A stretch of 5,380 nt of DNA from Acidobacteriota bacterium. Its GTDB lineage: Bacteria; Acidobacteriota; Terriglobia; Terriglobales; Acidobacteriaceae. The position numbers and the translations under genes were made by a program. The DNA is taken from NCBI GenBank assembly GCA_021778875.1, contig JAJYBT010000261.1, forward strand, positions 1 through 5,380, read 5' to 3'. The notes beneath the pieces were generated by a model. It was not told where the DNA came from. It made no database searches and saw nothing but the letters and a program-made list of their open reading frames with translations. This document shows, one piece after another, positions 1 to 5,380 of this stretch (its first letter is position 1; each line of letters opens with the position of its first letter).

Positions 1-240
1 CTGGGCTGAGGCGGGCTCGGCGACTGCCTCGATGCCGTAGCCGGCGGCGGGCTGCATGTCTTTGAAGAGCAGGTTGTAGAGCCTGCCGGTCCTGAGGTCT
101 TTCATAACCAGGCAATGCGGCTGGATGCCGCGCTCGACGCAGCCCTGCAGATGGATCTGAGCGGGATTGGGCAACTGGGCTGCGATGAGCGGCTGGCCGG
201 TGAGCGAGAGGACAATGCCGAGTATGGCAAGGTACTGCAT
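1..240 (-). CDS. Secreted protein of unknown function, 5' portion only (runs off the left edge)
   Basis: The minus strand is open from an ATG at 240-238 to the window edge, giving 80 residues with no stop. The start is supported by GGAAGGGAG on the minus strand (positions 255-247), 6 nt before the ATG. Residues 1-20 form a hydrophobic export signal (LAILGIVLSL core) with likely cleavage near the LIAAQ sequence at residues 18-22. The n-region lacks a basic residue, which is unusual. The mature part has two cysteines (C34, C43) nine residues apart, flanking a GCVERG stretch, then CLVMKD and TGRLYNLLF; these could form a disulfide in a small beta domain. I recall similar short secreted proteins in acidobacteria but cannot name a family with certainty. 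The gene is divergent from the kinase gene, so nothing ties it to the cytochrome module. The C-terminus is missing. Confidence 0.7.
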   Translation of the reverse strand, partial: MQYLAILGIVLSLTGQPLIAAQLPNPAQIHLQGCVERGIQPHCLVMKDLRTGRLYNLLFKDMQPAAGYGIEAVAEPASAQ

Positions 241-485: not shown

Positions 486-1562
486 ATGGAAGAGGAACAG
501 GACCAGCGGACGGATCCCCCGGCGGGGAGCCTGATGACACGGCTTGTGCCGTGGGTGGGCGGGGTGTGGGTTCTGCCGCTGCTGGTGGTGGCGCTGTGGC
601 TGCATGCCACGTCGGAGGTGGACTTTGCGCTGGCGGTGATTGTCGCCACGCTGCTGGCACCTATTCCCATGGTGCTGCTGGCGCGCCGGTTGCAGAGGCA
701 CTGGGAGGCGCGCGCGGAGAAGGCCGAGGAGAGCGCTGCACAACTGCGGCTGCAACTGGACACGGTGCGCTATCGCACGACGCGGCTGCGCGAGGAGTTG
801 CAGGCGGCGGACCGGCAGGCGAGGCTGTCGCACCAGTTGACGCTGCTGGGGCAGTTCACGGCGGGATTCATGCATGAGTTCAACAATCCGCTGGCGATTG
901 TGGCGGGGCGGATTGAGGTGCTGCTGGACGAGCGGAAAGACGATGCGGAGCTGTGCGGCGACTTGCAGCAGATGCTGAAGGAGACGCGGTACATGGGCAG
1001 CATTGCACGCACGCTGCTGCAGGCTCTGCGTCGCGAGCGCGGCGGCGAGGTGTTTGAGGCGTCGATGCCGCAGAAGGCGCTGGAGGAGGCTCTGGAGGCG
1101 TTTCGGCCGGGGGCCCGCGCGCAGGGAGTGAAGCTGCTGGAGGAGTTTGGCGAAGCGCCCAGGGTGGATGTGCCGGAGCACGTGGTGGGCGAGGTGGTGC
1201 GGGGACTTATCAGCAATGCGCTGGAGGCCCTGAAAGACACGGAAGATGCGGCGATCTGGGTGCGGCTGGAGCCCTACCGGACGGCGGGCGCGAAGGTGGT
1301 GGCGCGGGTGGAAGACAACGGGCCGGGAGTGCCGGAGACGATTCGCGAGCATCTGTTTGAGCCGTTTATCACGCAGAGCAGCGGACGGGAGCGGCTGGGG
1401 CTGGGATTGTTTCTGGCGGCCAGCCTGCTGGATATGTACGATGGCCGGATTCGTTATGAAGCGCGGGAGGAAGGCGGCGCCAGCTTTGTGATTGAGCTGC
1501 CGCCGGCGCGGTTTACGCGTGGCCAGCCTTACCATTGGTTTGCCGGAGGAGCGACGGAGTGA
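486..1562 (+). CDS. Membrane sensor histidine kinase, NtrB-like catalytic core
   Basis: It autophosphorylates on a histidine and passes the phosphate to the response regulator encoded next. The 358 residues read in order: a cytoplasmic N-terminus; two hydrophobic helices at about 25-42 and 47-66 separated by only a few residues; a charged, coiled-coil-like linker at about 69-115; the H-box FMHEFNNPL with phospho-accepting H130; the N-box LISNALEAL with N244; the G1 box VEDNGPGVP (277-279 region); the F-box LFEPF (290-294); and the G2 box RLGLGLFLA (303-311). All kinase motifs are intact. There is no PAS domain and essentially no periplasmic domain, so the signal is probably sensed in the membrane, in the cytoplasm or through a partner. 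The ATG at 486 has no clear ribosome site. An internal ATG at 534 (residue 17) has GGGGAG at 524-529 and would still include both helices. The stop overlaps the regulator start (GTGA), so the pair is translationally coupled. Confidence 0.93.
   Translation: MEEEQDQRTDPPAGSLMTRLVPWVGGVWVLPLLVVALWLHATSEVDFALAVIVATLLAPIPMVLLARRLQRHWEARAEKAEESAAQLRLQLDTVRYRTTRLREELQAADRQARLSHQLTLLGQFTAGFMHEFNNPLAIVAGRIEVLLDERKDDAELCGDLQQMLKETRYMGSIARTLLQALRRERGGEVFEASMPQKALEEALEAFRPGARAQGVKLLEEFGEAPRVDVPEHVVGEVVRGLISNALEALKDTEDAAIWVRLEPYRTAGAKVVARVEDNGPGVPETIREHLFEPFITQSSGRERLGLGLFLAASLLDMYDGRIRYEAREEGGASFVIELPPARFTRGQPYHWFAGGATE
1545..1550 (+). promoter_or_regulatory. Ribosome binding site that fixes the GTG start of the response regulator
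   Basis: GGAGGA lies inside the 3' end of the kinase gene, 8 nt before GTG at 1559-1561. An upstream in-frame TTG at 1535 lies before this site and would add eight residues (MVCRRSDG) ahead of a normal receiver-domain start, so GTG 1559 is preferred. Confidence 0.75.
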
Positions 1563-2959
1563 GCCGCATAGTGGTGATTGACGATGAGCCAGCGCTGGGC
1601 GAGAACATCCAGCGCATGCTGCGCCTTCCGGGGGCCACGGTACAGACGTTTACGGATCCGGCGAAGGGGCTGGCGTGCGCGCTGGCGCATCCTCCGGACC
1701 TGGTGCTGCTGGATGTGCGGATGCCGGGGATGTCGGGCGAGGAGGTATTTGCCCGGCTGCACGAGGAGCATCCGGCGCTGCCGATTGTGTTTTTGACGGC
1801 GTATGGGTCAGTGGAGAGCGCGGTGCTGGCGATGCGCAACGGCGCATTTGACTACCTGCAGAAGCCTTTCAAGCGCGAAGACCTGATGCTGGTGGCGAAG
1901 CGGGCGCTTTCGCACTCTTCGCTGGAGCACGAGGTGGCAAGGCTGAAGGGGCGTCTGGAGTCGCTGGGCGACACGGACGCGGCGCAGAGCCACAGTCCGG
2001 CGATGCTGGAGCAGATGGAGAAATGCCGCCGCGCCGCAGCCACGGATGCCACGGTGATGATCCTGGGCGAGAGCGGAACGGGCAAGGAAGTGATGGCGCG
2101 GTTTTTGCACTCGATGAGCCGCCGCAAGGATGGCCCGTATGTGCCGGTGGAGTGCAGCGCGATGCCGGGGGCGCTGATTGAGAGCGAGCTTTTTGGCTAC
2201 GAGAAGGGCGCCTTTACCGGGGCAGAGCGGATGAAGAAGGGGCTGATCGAGTCGGCCGATGGCGGAACGCTGTTCCTGGACGAGATTGGCGACCTGGGCG
2301 TGGAGCTGCAGACACGGCTGTTCCGGTTTGTGGAAGAGCGGGCGCTGCGCCGGCTGGGCGGACTGACGCAGGTGAAGGTGGATTGCCGCATCCTGTGCGC
2401 GACCAACCAGGACCTGATGGCCAAGATCAAGGCGGGATCGTTTCGCGAGGAGCTCTTCTACCGGTTGAGCGTGGTGACGGTGAAGCTGCCGCCGCTGCGG
2501 GAGCGGCCGGAGGATATTCCGCATCTGGCGCGGTTCTTTCTGGAGCGGTTTTCGCGGCGATATGGGAAGAGCGTTTCCGGCTCTCCGCAGTTCTATGAGG
2601 CACTGCTGAGACGGCGCTGGCAGGGGAATGTGCGGGAGCTGAAGAACGTGATGGAACGGCTGCTGGCGCTGCATCCGGGCGGCATTCTGCGGCCGGAGGA
2701 TCTGGAAGAGGAGATTCAGCAGCAGGAAGGCATTGGGCACCTGGCCGTTTTGCCGTGGAAGGATGCGCGAGACCGGTACCTGGCGGGCTTTGAGAAGTCC
2801 TATGCGCAGGCGGTGCTGGCGCGTTGCGGGGGGAACGTGAGCGCAGCGGCGCGCGAGGCCGGGGTGGACCGGAAGACCTTCTATCTGTTGCTGAAAAAGG
2901 ACAGGGAACCGCAGGGTGGGGAATTCATTCCTCAACTTGAGCCGGGGATCGGGGAGTAG
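1559..2959 (+). CDS. NtrC-family sigma-54-dependent response regulator
   Basis: This is a phosphorylation-controlled transcription activator that remodels sigma-54 RNA polymerase using ATP. It is 466 residues from GTG 1559, the usual length for the family. The receiver domain (about 1-118) has acidic-pocket D8/D9, phospho-acceptor D52 in LLDVRMPG, T80 and K102. The AAA+ domain (about 145-385) has Walker A GESGTGKE (170-177), the sigma-54-contacting GAFTGA loop (217-222), Walker B GGTLFLDE (235-242), FREELFYRL (295-303) and GNVREL (356-361). The C-terminal Fis-type helix-turn-helix is at about 424-447 (GGNVSAAAREAGVDRKTFY). Every key motif is present, so it should be an active sigma-54 activator. 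Its gene overlaps the kinase gene by 4 bp, making the kinase its obvious partner. The next operon begins 101 bp downstream with a sigma-54-like promoter, making it the obvious target. The target assignment is inference. Confidence 0.95.
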   Translation: MSRIVVIDDEPALGENIQRMLRLPGATVQTFTDPAKGLACALAHPPDLVLLDVRMPGMSGEEVFARLHEEHPALPIVFLTAYGSVESAVLAMRNGAFDYLQKPFKREDLMLVAKRALSHSSLEHEVARLKGRLESLGDTDAAQSHSPAMLEQMEKCRRAAATDATVMILGESGTGKEVMARFLHSMSRRKDGPYVPVECSAMPGALIESELFGYEKGAFTGAERMKKGLIESADGGTLFLDEIGDLGVELQTRLFRFVEERALRRLGGLTQVKVDCRILCATNQDLMAKIKAGSFREELFYRLSVVTVKLPPLRERPEDIPHLARFFLERFSRRYGKSVSGSPQFYEALLRRRWQGNVRELKNVMERLLALHPGGILRPEDLEEEIQQQEGIGHLAVLPWKDARDRYLAGFEKSYAQAVLARCGGNVSAAAREAGVDRKTFYLLLKKDREPQGGEFIPQLEPGIGE

Positions 2960-2966
2960 ACTCCCC
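2951..2966 (+). repeat. Perfect hairpin GGGGAG-TAGA-CTCCCC spanning the regulator stop codon
   Basis: A 6-bp GC-rich stem closes a 4-nt loop that contains the TAG stop codon. No T-run follows, so it is not a canonical intrinsic terminator, though it could weaken read-through or protect the mRNA end. Its right arm overlaps CCCACGC (2964-2970), which could instead pair with GCGTGGG at 3010-3016. Confidence 0.5.
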
Positions 2967-2991
2967 ACGCGGCAGTAGGAATGGGCGTTAA

Positions 2992-3002
2992 GTTACTGAA
3001 AC
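2992..3002. promoter_or_regulatory. Imperfect dyad GTTACTGAAAC, weak candidate activator site
   Basis: Four of five base pairs are symmetric around T2997. It lies about 20 bp upstream of the -24 element. Fis-type domains of NtrC regulators bind short dyads, but usually 80-150 bp upstream of the promoter, which here would fall inside the regulator gene. A single imperfect copy is weak evidence. Confidence 0.2.
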
Positions 3003-3017
3003 GATTAGAGCGTGGGT

Positions 3018-3034
3018 TTGGTCTGTGACTTGCT
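3018..3034 (+). promoter_or_regulatory. Sigma-54 (-24/-12) promoter for the cytochrome operon
   Basis: TTGGTCTGTGACTTGCT matches the sigma-54 consensus YTGGCACG-N4-TTGCW. The invariant GG (3020-3021) and GC (3032-3033) are exactly 12 bp apart, the -12 element TTGCT is complete, and the -24 element has TTGG and the final G. It lies between a gene for a GAFTGA-bearing sigma-54 activator and the cytochrome operon, in the right direction. The predicted start of transcription is at about 3045, just before the ribosome site at 3046-3051, so the leader would be only about 16 nt. That closeness is the main reason for caution. Confidence 0.6.
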
Positions 3035-3045
3035 AAGGGAATGGC

Positions 3046-3051
3046 AGGGAG
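3046..3051 (+). promoter_or_regulatory. Ribosome binding site of the porin-cytochrome gene
   Basis: AGGGAG lies 9 nt before the ATG at 3061. It is unusual because it would sit at the extreme 5' end of the mRNA if the sigma-54 promoter at 3018-3034 is used. Confidence 0.55.
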
Positions 3052-3060
3052 CAGCCAAAG

Positions 3061-4392
3061 ATGAAATTCTGGAAATCAGGCTTCAAGACATTCCTTTTTC
3101 TCTCAGTTCTATTTCTATTGATGCCTCAGCCGGGGCATGCGATTCCGGCATTTGCTCGGAAGTTTGGCGTAAAGTGCTACACCTGTCACACCATTCCACC
3201 CGCGTTGAACAAGAACGGCTACATGTTCAAGCGGTTGGGATATCGTATGCCTCCGGACGAGATGGACGGAAGCAAGCCGGCACCGAAGGTGAGCGAGCTG
3301 GACAAGGACATCAAGTTCAGCCTCACGAATTCGTTTGCCGTGATTCTGCAGGGCAGCGTTACCGAGGATAAGACAGTATCGGATTCAGGAACGACGACGT
3401 CGGTTTCTCCGTCGACCTCCTGCGGCAGCGATACGTCCTCCTCGTCCACATGCTCGAGCTTCAACCTGGACGAAGCGGCGATGTTCTTTGCCGGCGCGGT
3501 TCCGGACTCGGGCTTCTCCTACTTTGGGCACTATGAACTGTACCAGGACGGCGGCAGCGGTCTGGAGCAGGGTTTTGGCGTTTACACGGGCGGCCGCGCC
3601 AACAGCAGCTACTTTGTGAAGGGCGGCGAAATTCACATGCAGGAAGGTGAGGGAACGCGCGCAGCGATGTTCTACAACCTTTTCCCTGACCCGTCTTACA
3701 CGCTGACGAATGTTGATCCGATCGGCTTCACGCTGGATCAGCATCCGACGGGTGTGGACTTCGGCTACACGTGGGCGTCTCCGTACTTCGGCAAGATCTT
3801 TGCGGTATCGGCAAAGGTGACCAATGGCCTGGCTGCGGACGGCAGCGAAATTCTGAACGGCTCAACGAAGAACTCGAAGGATGTGTGGGCCGACGCGGAC
3901 TACTGGTTTGGACCGGATGGCGGCGTGACGGTGATGATGTATCGCGGCTCGAAGGATCAGAACCAGACGGATGCCAACGGCAATCCATTCACCTTCAGGC
4001 CGACCTTCTATCGCGTAGGCGCATTCGGCAACTACCTGTTCTTTGACAAGCTGGATCTGTTGGGCGGCTACATCCACAGCAATGATGACTGGCTGTGGAA
4101 CCAGGGCGGAACGATGTCGCACTACACGGCCAACAGCTACCGCGGAGAGGCTGATTACTACATCAAGACCGGAACGGCGCTGATGGCGCGGTTCGATCGC
4201 TCGAACCAGAAGATCGATCCCAATCCGCTGATGCACACGCGGGCATGGGGTGTTGGCGCCGAGCATGCGATGACGGACCTGGGCAATGTGGTGGTTCGTG
4301 CGACGTACAATCAGGAGCACGATGGCGACCCCGTTGCGCTGGTAGGCAGCACCGACAAGAAGTTCATGCTGGACTTCCGGTTCATGTGGTAA
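3061..4392 (+). CDS. Fused monoheme cytochrome c / outer-membrane porin, Cyc2-like
   Basis: It probably carries electrons through the outer membrane. The 443 residues begin with a signal peptide (hydrophobic core 11-21, likely cleavage after GHA at residue 27). The mature N-terminus reads IPAFARKFGVKCYTCH, with one covalent-heme motif (C39, C42, H43), then PALNKNGYMFKRLGY (47-61). This A-P-F-A-R-x-x-G-x-x-C-x-x-C-H then G-x-x-F-K-x-x-G-Y layout is that of the Cyc2 porin-cytochrome family (400-500 residues), whose studied members oxidise Fe(II). The rest has alternating, aromatic-rich stretches and ends FMLDFRFMW, with the terminal aromatic typical of outer-membrane beta-barrels. A Ser/Thr-rich insert (about 105-133) holds two extra cysteines (C121, C131), possibly in a surface loop. 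It is the first gene of a two-cytochrome operon behind a sigma-54-like promoter. Related acidobacterial porin-cytochromes have no proven substrate, so iron oxidation is only one possibility. The fusion is secure; the exact subfamily is less so. Confidence 0.85.
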   Translation: MKFWKSGFKTFLFLSVLFLLMPQPGHAIPAFARKFGVKCYTCHTIPPALNKNGYMFKRLGYRMPPDEMDGSKPAPKVSELDKDIKFSLTNSFAVILQGSVTEDKTVSDSGTTTSVSPSTSCGSDTSSSSTCSSFNLDEAAMFFAGAVPDSGFSYFGHYELYQDGGSGLEQGFGVYTGGRANSSYFVKGGEIHMQEGEGTRAAMFYNLFPDPSYTLTNVDPIGFTLDQHPTGVDFGYTWASPYFGKIFAVSAKVTNGLAADGSEILNGSTKNSKDVWADADYWFGPDGGVTVMMYRGSKDQNQTDANGNPFTFRPTFYRVGAFGNYLFFDKLDLLGGYIHSNDDWLWNQGGTMSHYTANSYRGEADYYIKTGTALMARFDRSNQKIDPNPLMHTRAWGVGAEHAMTDLGNVVVRATYNQEHDGDPVALVGSTDKKFMLDFRFMW

Positions 4393-4404
4393 GGGGAGAG
4401 GACA

Positions 4405-4812
4405 ATGCACAAAGCAATTCAATGGATGGCAATTGCCTGTATGAGCGCGCCGCTGTTTGTGGTTGCGCAGAGCAGCAACGTAACGCTTCCGCAGGATAAG
4501 GGGCCGAGCTCGATCAATGTCTCTTCGTATCCGCCGGAGCAGCAGAAGGCCTACAAGGTGTTTGTGGACAAGTGCGCGAAGTGCCACACGATTGCTCGCC
4601 CGATCAACACGTCGATGAGCAAGCCGGAGTGGGAGCGCTATGTGAAGCGCATGATGCACAAGCCGAACTCGGGCATCAGCGACAAGCAGGCGAAGGACAT
4701 CTTCGAGTTCCTGGCGTATGACCAGCAGGTTCGCAAGGACAAGAATCCCTCCGCCTTCTACAAGTCGCTTTCCGATGCAGAGATCGAGAAGCTGAAGGCG
4801 CAACAGCACTAA
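4405..4812 (+). CDS. Small exported monoheme cytochrome c
   Basis: A 135-residue periplasmic electron carrier. Residues 1-21 form a signal peptide with likely cleavage VVA/QS. The single heme motif is CAKCH (C57, C60, H61). A downstream EWERYVKRMM segment (76-84) supplies M83 or M84 as the probable second heme ligand, as in small class I-type cytochromes, and is followed by the C-terminal helix AKDIFEFLAYD. The lysine-rich tail (111-135) could aid docking to an acidic partner. A strong ribosome site AGGGGAGAGG (4392-4401) overlaps the preceding stop codon, and the genes are only 12 bp apart, so they are very likely co-transcribed. The obvious role is to exchange electrons with the periplasm-facing heme of the porin-cytochrome. 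The terminator downstream closes the operon. Direction of electron flow is unknown. Confidence 0.9.
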   Translation: MHKAIQWMAIACMSAPLFVVAQSSNVTLPQDKGPSSINVSSYPPEQQKAYKVFVDKCAKCHTIARPINTSMSKPEWERYVKRMMHKPNSGISDKQAKDIFEFLAYDQQVRKDKNPSAFYKSLSDAEIEKLKAQQH

Positions 4813-4976
4813 GACGTGCGCAGGGATTGTTCCTTGCCACATAACCGCAAGTTGCTTTACCTGGACCCCGGCGAGCATCTGGCCCGCTCGCCGGGAGTAT
4901 TTTCAAAAGAAGTCAGGGAAGCGCGGGCCATGGCTGTTGAGTGTAGTTGCTGAGAATTTTTGGAGGTTGGGACCGC
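4813..4976. other. Intergenic region between the cytochrome operon and the oxidoreductase gene
   Basis: It holds the intrinsic terminator listed separately and a weaker hairpin, CTTGC (4833-4837) with GCAAG (4847-4851) around a 9-nt loop. A promoter for the next gene should lie between about 4904 and 4960, but I see no convincing -35/-10 or -24/-12 pair there. Confidence 0.5.
4867..4903 (+). terminator. Intrinsic terminator of the cytochrome operon
   Basis: CCCGGCGAGC (4867-4876) pairs perfectly with GCTCGCCGGG (4886-4895), giving a 10-bp GC-rich stem with a 9-nt loop, followed within 4 nt by TATTTT. It lies 54 bp after the small cytochrome's stop, so it should separate that operon from the oxidoreductase gene. 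Confidence 0.9.
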
Positions 4977-5357
4977 ATGAGCTATTCCATCAAGATCCCG
5001 GACAGGGAGTACTTTGACAAAAATATTCCCTGCCAGTCGGCCTGCCCGATTCATACCGAGTGCGGACGCTATGTGCAGGCGATTGGGATCTCGCAGGACG
5101 AAGAAGCCTATCTGCTGGCACGCGCGCCAAATCCGTTTGCGTATGTGCTGGGAAGGATCTGCGCGCATCCATGCGAGGATAACTGCCGCCGCGGGAAGAT
5201 TGACGAGCCGATTGCCATTTGTGCGCTGAAGCGCTACGCGACAGACAGGCACAACCTGGGCATGGGGCATGATCCGGCAAGGAAGGCCCTGCCGCGGCGA
5301 AACCCCCCGGCGACGCGCTGGCTGAACCGATACGAGGTCATCCAATCCAGCTCGTAG
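4977..5357 (+). CDS. N-terminal iron-sulfur domain of a GltD-like FAD oxidoreductase, broken
   Basis: Starts at ATG 4977 with GGAGG at 4962-4966, 10 nt upstream. Residues 1-91 match the N-terminal [4Fe-4S] domain shared by glutamate synthase small subunits and related NAD(P)H-dependent oxidoreductases: CQSACPIHTEC (C19, C23, C29), NPFAYVLGRICAHPCEDNC (C62, C66, C70), then RRGKIDEPIAICALKR. Such proteins are normally about 450 residues or more and continue into FAD and NAD(P)H domains starting with a GxGxxG motif. Here the frame ends after 126 residues with none. From about residue 99 the plus-strand reading (KALPRRNPPATRW onwards) is antisense to a coherent monooxygenase fragment on the minus strand, so the real gene fragment ends at about 5271-5283. 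Whether this is a DNA rearrangement or an assembly join cannot be settled here. It follows a terminator, so it is probably transcribed separately from the cytochromes, though a related redox role is plausible. Confidence 0.75.
   Translation: MSYSIKIPDREYFDKNIPCQSACPIHTECGRYVQAIGISQDEEAYLLARAPNPFAYVLGRICAHPCEDNCRRGKIDEPIAICALKRYATDRHNLGMGHDPARKALPRRNPPATRWLNRYEVIQSSS
5271..5283. other. Junction between two unrelated, oppositely oriented gene fragments
   Basis: To the left, the plus strand encodes an iron-sulfur oxidoreductase N-terminus. To the right, the minus strand encodes a flavin monooxygenase. Both lose homology within about a dozen bases of each other. The bases CCGGCA (5274-5279) fit both genes (codons for Pro-Ala on plus, Ala-Gly on minus), consistent with a microhomology join or an assembly overlap error. 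Confidence 0.55.
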
Positions 5358-5380
5358 GCCACATTCGGGCCGATCACCTG
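5273..5380 (-). CDS. Internal fragment of an FAD-dependent (aromatic-hydroxylase-type) monooxygenase
   Basis: Reading the minus strand from 5380 gives an open frame containing VAYELDWMTSYRFSQRVAGG, then FRRGRAFLAG. This is the segment that precedes the FAD-contacting GDAAH motif in flavoprotein ring hydroxylases, with the usual W...Y...RVA..(Y/F)R.GR(V/A)FLAG spacing. Exactly where GDAAH should follow, the reading changes to SCPMPRLCLSVA and stops at 5236-5234. It therefore breaks at the same point where the plus-strand oxidoreductase loses homology. The N-terminal part lies beyond the window and the C-terminal part is absent. No function beyond the family can be assigned. Confidence 0.6.

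Follow-up and report, generated by a model that had tools for sequence, protein, structure and literature searches.

The 5,380-nucleotide stretch of DNA analyzed here (the window; contig JAJYBT010000261.1 of an Acidobacteriota bacterium of the family Acidobacteriaceae, assembly GCA_021778875.1) appears to hold the first half of an inducible operon for the exchange of electrons with the cell exterior. In this operon, electrons would most likely travel inward, a reading held with somewhat better than even confidence and drawn from gene content, gene order, and the anatomy of the control region. A dedicated NtrC-type regulator apparently serves a single sigma-54 promoter in front of the gene for a Cyc2-like outer-membrane porin-cytochrome. 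Five genes follow one another on the + strand of the window, which has a GC content of 61%: histidine kinase, NtrC-type regulator, porin-cytochrome, monoheme cytochrome c, and the start of a flavoprotein. These genes and a hairpin between the last two are located as follows.

486 to 1562, + strand: histidine kinase of 358 amino acids (aa), with HisKA (HEFNNPLA) and HATPase domains; N and G motifs seen
1559 to 2959, + strand: NtrC-family response regulator of 466 aa, with a GTG start; overlaps the kinase stop by 4 nucleotides (nt)
3061 to 4392, + strand: Cyc2-like porin-cytochrome of 443 aa, with a signal peptide-like start, a heme domain, and a barrel of 16 to 17 strands
4405 to 4812, + strand: monoheme cytochrome c of 135 aa, probably secreted, judged from its sequence
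4867 to 4895, + strand: GC-rich hairpin of 10 bp with a weak T tract, found in a hairpin search
4977 to 5357, + strand: start of a GltD/NfnB-like FAD-NAD(P) oxidoreductase with Fer4_20 (614 aa in the related locus L001)

The original prediction, made from the window alone, was of a self-contained, locally regulated electron-transfer module that begins at 1559. The kinase, activator, sigma-54-like promoter, porin-cytochrome, and small cytochrome that it listed are all present and run in one direction. Position 1559 is indeed the start of the activator; as the start of the module it does not hold, since the kinase precedes it.

The window was compared with 48 loci from a scan of genome contigs, all from metagenome-assembled genomes (MAGs) of Acidobacteriota. 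One of these loci, L001 (BP5.bin97), encodes a porin-cytochrome identical to that of the window and was therefore taken to represent the window's species. A tblastn match of >150 bits was required for a locus to be considered regulator bearing; weak NtrC matches at other places, L040 among them, were left out. By this measure, 36 of the 48 loci have the regulator upstream of the porin-cytochrome, and two of the other 12 (L029 and L044) are truncated by a contig end. The kinase is present in 32 of the 36 regulator-bearing loci, with the contig beginning within the regulator gene in the other four, and the small cytochrome is present in 35. In a search of 298 genomes of the order, in which regulator orthologues were accepted at E values up to 1e-120 and at most five initial candidates per genome were scored for either protein, the porin-cytochrome profile hit 29 genomes. 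The regulator orthologue was found in 20 genomes, all of them among the 29, and it adjoined the porin-cytochrome gene in every one. The finding that the original prediction had named as its refutation, a kinase-regulator pair not conserved beside the cytochromes in relatives, was thus looked for and did not appear, and the local, dedicated control that it had proposed is supported by the conserved adjacency. Absences in these comparisons are soft because most of the genomes are draft MAGs. In one genome (G137), the whole set lies on a single 5.99-Mb contig that is essentially the entire 6.0-Mb genome.

The regulator has the domains of the NtrC family, namely, a receiver with the Asp motif, a sigma-54 AAA+ domain with Walker A and GAFTGA motifs, and a Fis-type helix-turn-helix. 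In 31 aligned kinases examined by eye, the N terminus forms a short hydrophobic hairpin of low conservation, a highly conserved coiled coil comes next, and no periplasmic sensor domain is evident.

The region between the regulator and the porin-cytochrome contains the elements of an enhancer-dependent sigma-54 promoter, including two palindromic enhancers that the original prediction had overlooked.

2917 to 2934, no strand: palindrome 1, TGGGGAATTCATTCCTCA, a putative upstream activating site within the final codons of the regulator gene
2950 to 2967, no strand: palindrome 2, CGGGGAGTAGACTCCCCA, a putative upstream activating site that runs across the regulator stop codon
2989 to 3001, no strand: IHF-like element, TAAGTTACTGAAA in the window, with two mismatches to the IHF consensus
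3018 to 3034, + strand: sigma-54 -24/-12 element, TTGGTCTGTGACTTGCT, a pattern match conserved in relatives

In the window alone, the evidence for the promoter is not decisive: the -24/-12 pattern has three matches versus 0.52 expected, 4 of 200 shuffles reach three, and the other two matches fall inside genes. Across relatives, it is decisive. The strict pattern lies 10 to 80 bp upstream of the porin-cytochrome in 33 of the 36 regulator-bearing loci versus 0.66 expected (expectations for the -24/-12 pattern, the palindromes, and the IHF-like site are from first-order Markov shuffles). With a slightly looser pattern, which showed no element in L020, L031, L034, or L035, the -24 element starts 99 to 102 bp past the first palindrome in 32 of the 36 loci. 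The palindromes have the consensus TGGGGAAT-NN-ATTCCCCA, and we know of no described operator that matches it. At least one palindrome with ≤2 mismatches was found inside 260 bp in 34 of the 36 loci (0.0 expected), and two copies with ≤4 mismatches were likewise found in 34. In 29 of the 36 loci, exactly 33 bp separate the starts of the two palindromes; the distance is 32 or 34 bp in L013, L017, L022, L024, and L028 and 89 and 105 bp in L031 and L034, respectively. In L035, the palindromes fall after the estimated start of the porin-cytochrome, because the reading of that start is broken. For the control region, column information was derived from 29 loci whose palindrome pair had at most 6 mismatches. 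Of 34 loci (L017 and L034 omitted), 20 have a site resembling the IHF consensus (≤1 mismatch) at a distance of 70 to 73 bp from the first palindrome, versus 1.84 expected. RpoN was found in all 25 genomes searched, and a sigma-70 promoter scan of the window returned nothing. The -24/-12 element, upstream palindromes at fixed spacing, and rpoN in the genome together make up the anatomy of an enhancer-dependent sigma-54 promoter.

Adjacency by itself never proves control, and the kinase-regulator pair could be a mere neighbor that controls other genes. In close relatives, palindrome 1 lies in the last codons of the regulator and palindrome 2 lies across its stop, an overlap with the coding end of the regulator that would suit such a neighbor. 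The palindromes track the promoter, however, rather than the regulator gene. In six loci (L019, L021 to L024, and L030), the end of the regulator is 250 to 2,100 bp away and lacks those codons, yet the palindrome pair keeps its place at the promoter, 142 to 144 and 109 to 111 bp before the porin-cytochrome (134 and 101 bp in L021). The palindromes are thus a DNA signal rather than a peptide signal, and the suggestion that they are a mere by-product of the C-terminal peptide of the regulator was rejected. In L022, L023, L024, and L030, 1.3 to 2.1 kb of other sequence separates the regulator from the promoter.

Genome-wide distribution of the palindromes also argues against a pair that controls other genes. 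Of 30 genomes with the regulator, 27 contain the palindrome pair (24 fixed bases, ≤3 mismatches) at a single place. By coordinates, all 27 pairs are at the porin-cytochrome promoter, and none of the 27 genomes has a second pair. The three genomes missed by the pattern (G016, G024, and G026) are those of L013, L022, and L028, where the spacing is 34 bp. No pair was found in 29 other genomes, comprising 20 with neither gene and 9 with a porin-cytochrome in which no regulator was seen; in two of those 9 (G027 and G028), the regulator was sought only around the locus. In a search of 20 regulator-bearing genomes for a single palindrome with ≤1 mismatch, 16 places were found in 15 genomes, all 16 at the porin-cytochrome promoter, and none in the other 5 genomes. 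At ≤2 mismatches there are a few scattered sites, two of them in G005, which has no regulator at its porin-cytochrome locus and in which the reversed control pattern gave hits as well.

Because the palindrome pattern was derived from the same first-round loci, a hold-out set of 14 further regions from the 298-genome search was used. With a regulator present, both palindromes (≤3 mismatches) were found in six of six regions and the -24/-12 pattern was found in five; the remaining one, L067, has both palindromes and no strict -24/-12 element. Without a regulator beside the gene, a palindrome was found in none of eight regions at up to 4 mismatches. Sigma-54-like patterns are present in two of these eight (L058 and L060). 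For L055, L061, and L066, the genome has a regulator on another contig, next to another porin-cytochrome. In L066 (genome G158), the divergent porin-cytochrome without a regulator is near an opposite-strand set of Rieske, cytochrome b, and multiheme genes. These results support local, dedicated NtrC/sigma-54 control of the porin-cytochrome promoter, which is apparently the single target of the regulator in each genome, and they make it very improbable that the kinase and regulator are bystanders.

The product of the controlled gene is supported, by sequence and by a structural model, as a Cyc2-like porin-cytochrome. The Cyc2 motif consists of AXPXFAR[Q/K][T/Y] upstream of CXXCH and PXL downstream (PMC8406198). 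The heme domain in the window reads AIPAFARKF...CYTCHTIPPAL. Like Cyc2 of Acidithiobacillus and Mariprofundus and Cyt572 of Leptospirillum, the protein has a signal peptide-like start, one CXXCH, AXPXFAR[Q/K], PXL, a barrel of about 16 strands, and a length of over 365 aa. The motif up to its penultimate position, AXPXFAR[Q/K], is present in 34 of 34 aligned close relatives and in 25 of 32 proteins in a wider alignment, and the full motif is present in 22 of 34 and 12 of 32, respectively. A single CXXCH with a downstream PXL, as in Cyc2, was found in every row of both alignments. The AlphaFold2 model (predicted local distance difference test score [pLDDT], 73.6; predicted template modeling score [pTM], 0.73) has 16 to 17 strands and a heme domain of low confidence, an arrangement that corresponds to the outer-membrane barrel fused to a heme domain that is expected of Cyc2. 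In a Foldseek search, the model matched 16-strand porins and OprO/OprP, the templates named for Cyc2, with template modeling scores of about 0.5. A sequence search of the PDB with the porin-cytochrome profile gave one chance-level match only (E value, 1.5). The original prediction of a Cyc2-like gene was therefore borne out by all but the last position of the motif, the single CXXCH, and the modeled barrel. Leptospirillum Cyc572 has been linked to acidobacterial and Nitrospira homologues (PMC10654088).

The porin-cytochrome appears to be the exchangeable part of the cluster. In four loci (L056, L062, L063, and L064), the kinase, regulator, small cytochrome, flavoprotein, Rieske protein, cytochrome b, and hexaheme cytochrome are 71 to 88% identical to the window set, and the porin-cytochrome is a distant paralogue, with 37 to 38% identity to that of the window and 48 to 52% to that of L038. 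The promoter in these loci retains both palindromes. This swap in otherwise conserved clusters suggests that the outer-membrane part was replaced while the switch and the inner-membrane part stayed. An extra monoheme cytochrome of 124 to 128 aa is encoded beside the paralogue in the three of these loci that were read (L056, L062, and L064). L046, in which the contig ends within the cluster, resembles these loci (porin-cytochrome, 37%). Other divergent porin-cytochromes are without the regulator and the palindromes. In three of these, L038, L040, and L047, a sigma-54-like site of another kind lies at -94 to -106, and L038 and L047 also have a palindrome of another kind (CTTTGCCTCAAATGAGGCAAAG in L038); perhaps a second activator acts from elsewhere. 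Since the sites in L038, L040, and L047 differ, there may have been more than one origin, or rewiring, of sigma-54 control.

The original prediction described the module as self-contained and ended by a strong terminator. Neither description is upheld. The hairpin has a stem of 10 bp with a weak T run, and a terminator scan of the window gave three terminator-like matches, no excess over shuffles (mean, 4.0). The hairpin is not the end of the module, because conserved genes continue past it. In L001, the flavoprotein, which has Fer4_20 and C-terminal ferredoxin domains, is followed by a Rieske protein, a cytochrome b of 428 aa that comprises both the N and the C part, and a hexaheme cytochrome c. 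The order is constant in the 36 regulator-bearing loci, where the flavoprotein is present in 35, the Rieske protein and cytochrome b in 30, and the hexaheme cytochrome in 27.

The genes could instead be divided at the hairpin, into a complete two-cytochrome module and a separate, separately controlled unit of Rieske/cytochrome b genes. The gap between the small cytochrome and the flavoprotein was measured in 37 loci, including L029 and L044, from the end of the tblastn match (stop codons included). In 21 of the 37, including the window's species, this gap is 92 to 292 nt, and 14 of the 21 have a hairpin of 6 to 13 bp, which would be consistent with two units. In the other 16, however, the gap is 12 to 46 nt, with no hairpin found in it, leaving little room for control. 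The downstream genes are missing from regulator-bearing loci only where the contig or stretch ends. Moreover, L037 holds the outer-membrane conduit and the Rieske/cytochrome b genes together even in the absence of the regulator and the flavoprotein. Two separate units thus seem improbable. In the short-gap loci, the genes are likely to form one transcript. In the long-gap loci, including the window's species, the hairpin may reduce readthrough and need not stop it; it is perhaps a leaky terminator. L037 itself encodes a porin-cytochrome, small cytochrome, Rieske protein, cytochrome b, and hexaheme-type cytochrome, without the regulator, flavoprotein, or palindromes, and is perhaps the ancestral core.

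The downstream genes resemble those of Rieske complexes of Kuenenia. The best PDB matches of the Rieske protein were 9rk4 (E value, 2.6e-22) and 9rk3 (7.2e-22), with the next at 1.3e-14; these two are Kuste4569 and Kustd1480 of Kuenenia (PMC12954380). The best match of the flavoprotein was the sequence of 9bov/9bp5, and 9bp5 (NfnABC) is the structural relative named for the Kuenenia complexes, which have a putative NAD(P) oxidoreductase and for which quinol bifurcation has been proposed (PMC12954380). As in the Kuenenia gene sets (Kuste4569-4574 and Kustd1480-1485), a Rieske protein, cytochrome b, multiheme cytochrome c, and NfnB-like flavoprotein are encoded together. The multiheme cytochrome is hexa- or octaheme in Kuenenia and hexaheme in the cluster, with six CXXCH motifs in 25 of 27 proteins, five in one, and seven in one. 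Unlike the Kuenenia proteins, the cytochrome b of the cluster is one 428-aa chain with both halves, rather than b6 plus subunit IV. At the position of the b6 cysteine, which holds heme cn, it has a tyrosine. The Kuenenia complexes have a b6-like four-helix cytochrome b, a separate subunit IV-like protein, and heme cn (PMC12954380). They also differ in their company, as the Kuenenia genes accompany a nitrite-reductase-like octaheme protein, whereas the cluster is encoded with an outer-membrane conduit. An assignment of the 151- and 428-aa downstream proteins as NuoE/NuoF was rejected; Pfam gives Rieske and cytochrome b. At least two matches to the cytochrome b family of the cluster were found in 24 of 25 genomes, so the cluster copy is rarely the sole one.

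In the mechanism that we propose, a membrane-attached kinase would phosphorylate the NtrC-type regulator, which would bind the two palindromes 33 bp apart upstream of the sigma-54 promoter. The DNA between the palindromes and the promoter would be bent, probably by IHF, and the regulator would then open the promoter, probably its sole target. This promoter would drive the Cyc2-type outer-membrane cytochrome-porin and the periplasmic monoheme cytochrome and, directly or past the leaky hairpin, the Rieske/cytochrome b/hexaheme cytochrome c complex and the flavin NAD(P) oxidoreductase. Electrons from Fe(II) or another extracellular donor would most likely pass through the outer-membrane protein to the monoheme and hexaheme cytochromes and then to the Rieske/cytochrome b complex, which would drive some of these electrons uphill, to quinone and NAD(P)H. 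We infer induction, cotranscription, assembly into one complex, the electron donor, and, above all, direction.

The same parts and the same switch could also run in reverse, an arrangement that is possible and that we consider the less probable one. The Rieske/cytochrome b complex would then oxidize menaquinol, with quinol bifurcation as proposed for Kuenenia. The high-potential electron would pass via the hexaheme and monoheme cytochromes to the porin-cytochrome and on to Fe(III) or humics outside the cell, and NAD(P)+ would be reduced by the low-potential electron. The Kuenenia complexes, with their related Rieske proteins and NAD(P) oxidoreductase, are proposed to run in this way (PMC12954380). 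Fe(III) reduction is known among acidobacterial isolates, Acidobacterium capsulatum included, and a role as terminal ferric reductase has been suggested for Cyc2 (PMC8790237). RuBisCO-family matches were found in just 4 of 25 genomes, so most hosts need not be lithoautotrophs. On the other side, characterized Cyc2 proteins have been shown to oxidize Fe(II) (PMC8406198 and PMC7029218). Heme-copper oxidase genes were found in 20 of 20 genomes, and the window's own species (G001) has a match at the level of the RuBisCO family; both were counted for inward flow. Inward electron flow is therefore preferred over outward flow, with modest confidence.

In addition to the scarcity of RuBisCO-family matches, several observations weigh against an inducible, inward-directed Cyc2 operon. 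The motif in the window, AIPAFARKF, ends in F rather than in T or Y. The function of Cyc2 Cluster 3 is called the most uncertain (PMC8406198), and the window protein might fall in that cluster. The strict -24/-12 pattern is absent from three of the 36 regulator-bearing loci (L020, L025, and L035). Of the 29 genomes of the order with a porin-cytochrome, 9 are without a regulator at E values up to 1e-120; one of the 9 (G186, the genome of L067) has a partial match of 59% that fell under this cutoff. A recognizable sensor domain was not found in the kinase. The usual motif in cytochrome b is PEWY. The cytochrome b of the cluster carries APWYF instead (24 of 28 proteins; the remaining 4 were unmatched by the search), and quinone chemistry may therefore be unusual.

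Each part of the cluster resembles a known system, and the combination and its control look new. As in the rus and pet operons of Acidithiobacillus, an outer-membrane Cyc2 protein is paired with a periplasmic cytochrome; a bc1 complex serves uphill electron flow there. The rus order is cyc2-cyc1-cox-rusticyanin (PMC10654088 and PMC5506826), and among the cluster genes of L001 there is no oxidase or rusticyanin. The neighbors of the window's porin-cytochrome gene and its control thus differ from those in rus. The rus operon of cyc2 is sigma-70 dependent with RegB/RegA, and pet is likewise sigma-70/RegA controlled (PMC5506826), whereas the window cluster has sigma-54 architecture and a gene for an NAD(P) oxidoreductase. 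In the rus organism, two other operons are preceded by sigma-54 promoters and lie next to sigma-54-dependent response regulators (PMC5506826). With NtrC/AtoC-type two-component systems that use tandem enhancers and IHF, the system described here shares the regulator domains, GAFTGA, paired palindromes, bend-like site, and -24/-12 element; it differs in that each genome apparently has a single target. As such, sigma-54 control of extracellular electron transfer genes is not new. RpoN has been linked to such genes in Geobacter (PMC2725144), where the regulon is broad, partly indirect, and without a dedicated regulator for a Cyc2-like operon. The original prediction knew of no description of NtrC-type control of a Cyc2-like gene, and none was found among the matches listed in the open-license PMC literature. 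Nor did the matches listed include a description of an NAD(P)-type Rieske/cytochrome b complex together with a Cyc2-like gene.

Other features of the window and its surroundings are on the periphery of the operon. An 80-aa secreted-looking reading frame at 1 to 240 (- strand, opposite to the operon) runs off the start of the window and has no match in Pfam or NCBIfam. L001 and the window have 13 base differences before position 5250 and diverge heavily from 5295 on (79 differences in all). The flavoprotein frame of the window departs from that of L001 at 5295 and stops at 5357, and a query with positions 5290 to 5380 found no match in the L001 genome. Bases 5295 to 5380 are therefore probably a contig-end artifact, or else a strain difference. 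On the 3' side of the cluster in L001, at 16859 to 17545, a protein with CXXCH motifs resembles CytoC_RC, the photosynthetic reaction-center cytochrome family; tblastn matched this protein in 10 of the 48 first-round loci, L001 included.

Bogs, fens, soils, and acid waters are among the settings of the uncultured Acidobacteriota that carry the cluster. Beyond a few models, little is known of how organisms that trade electrons with minerals make reducing power and switch its production on. Taken as a whole, our tentative proposal is that one inducible operon connects the outer surface of these bacteria directly with a Rieske/cytochrome b complex that contains flavin and produces NAD(P)H, either uphill from Fe(II) or by quinol bifurcation against an extracellular acceptor, with a single-target switch and an outer-membrane tip that can be exchanged between lineages. 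Gene order ties the outer-membrane conduit to an NAD(P)-type Rieske/cytochrome b complex in these uncultured bacteria. With one regulator and apparently one promoter, the conserved operator offers a clean handle: the operator pair could be used to find the operon and to report on it, and the inducing signal could be screened for with a reporter. The energy coupling proposed for the anammox complexes would thereby gain a second setting.

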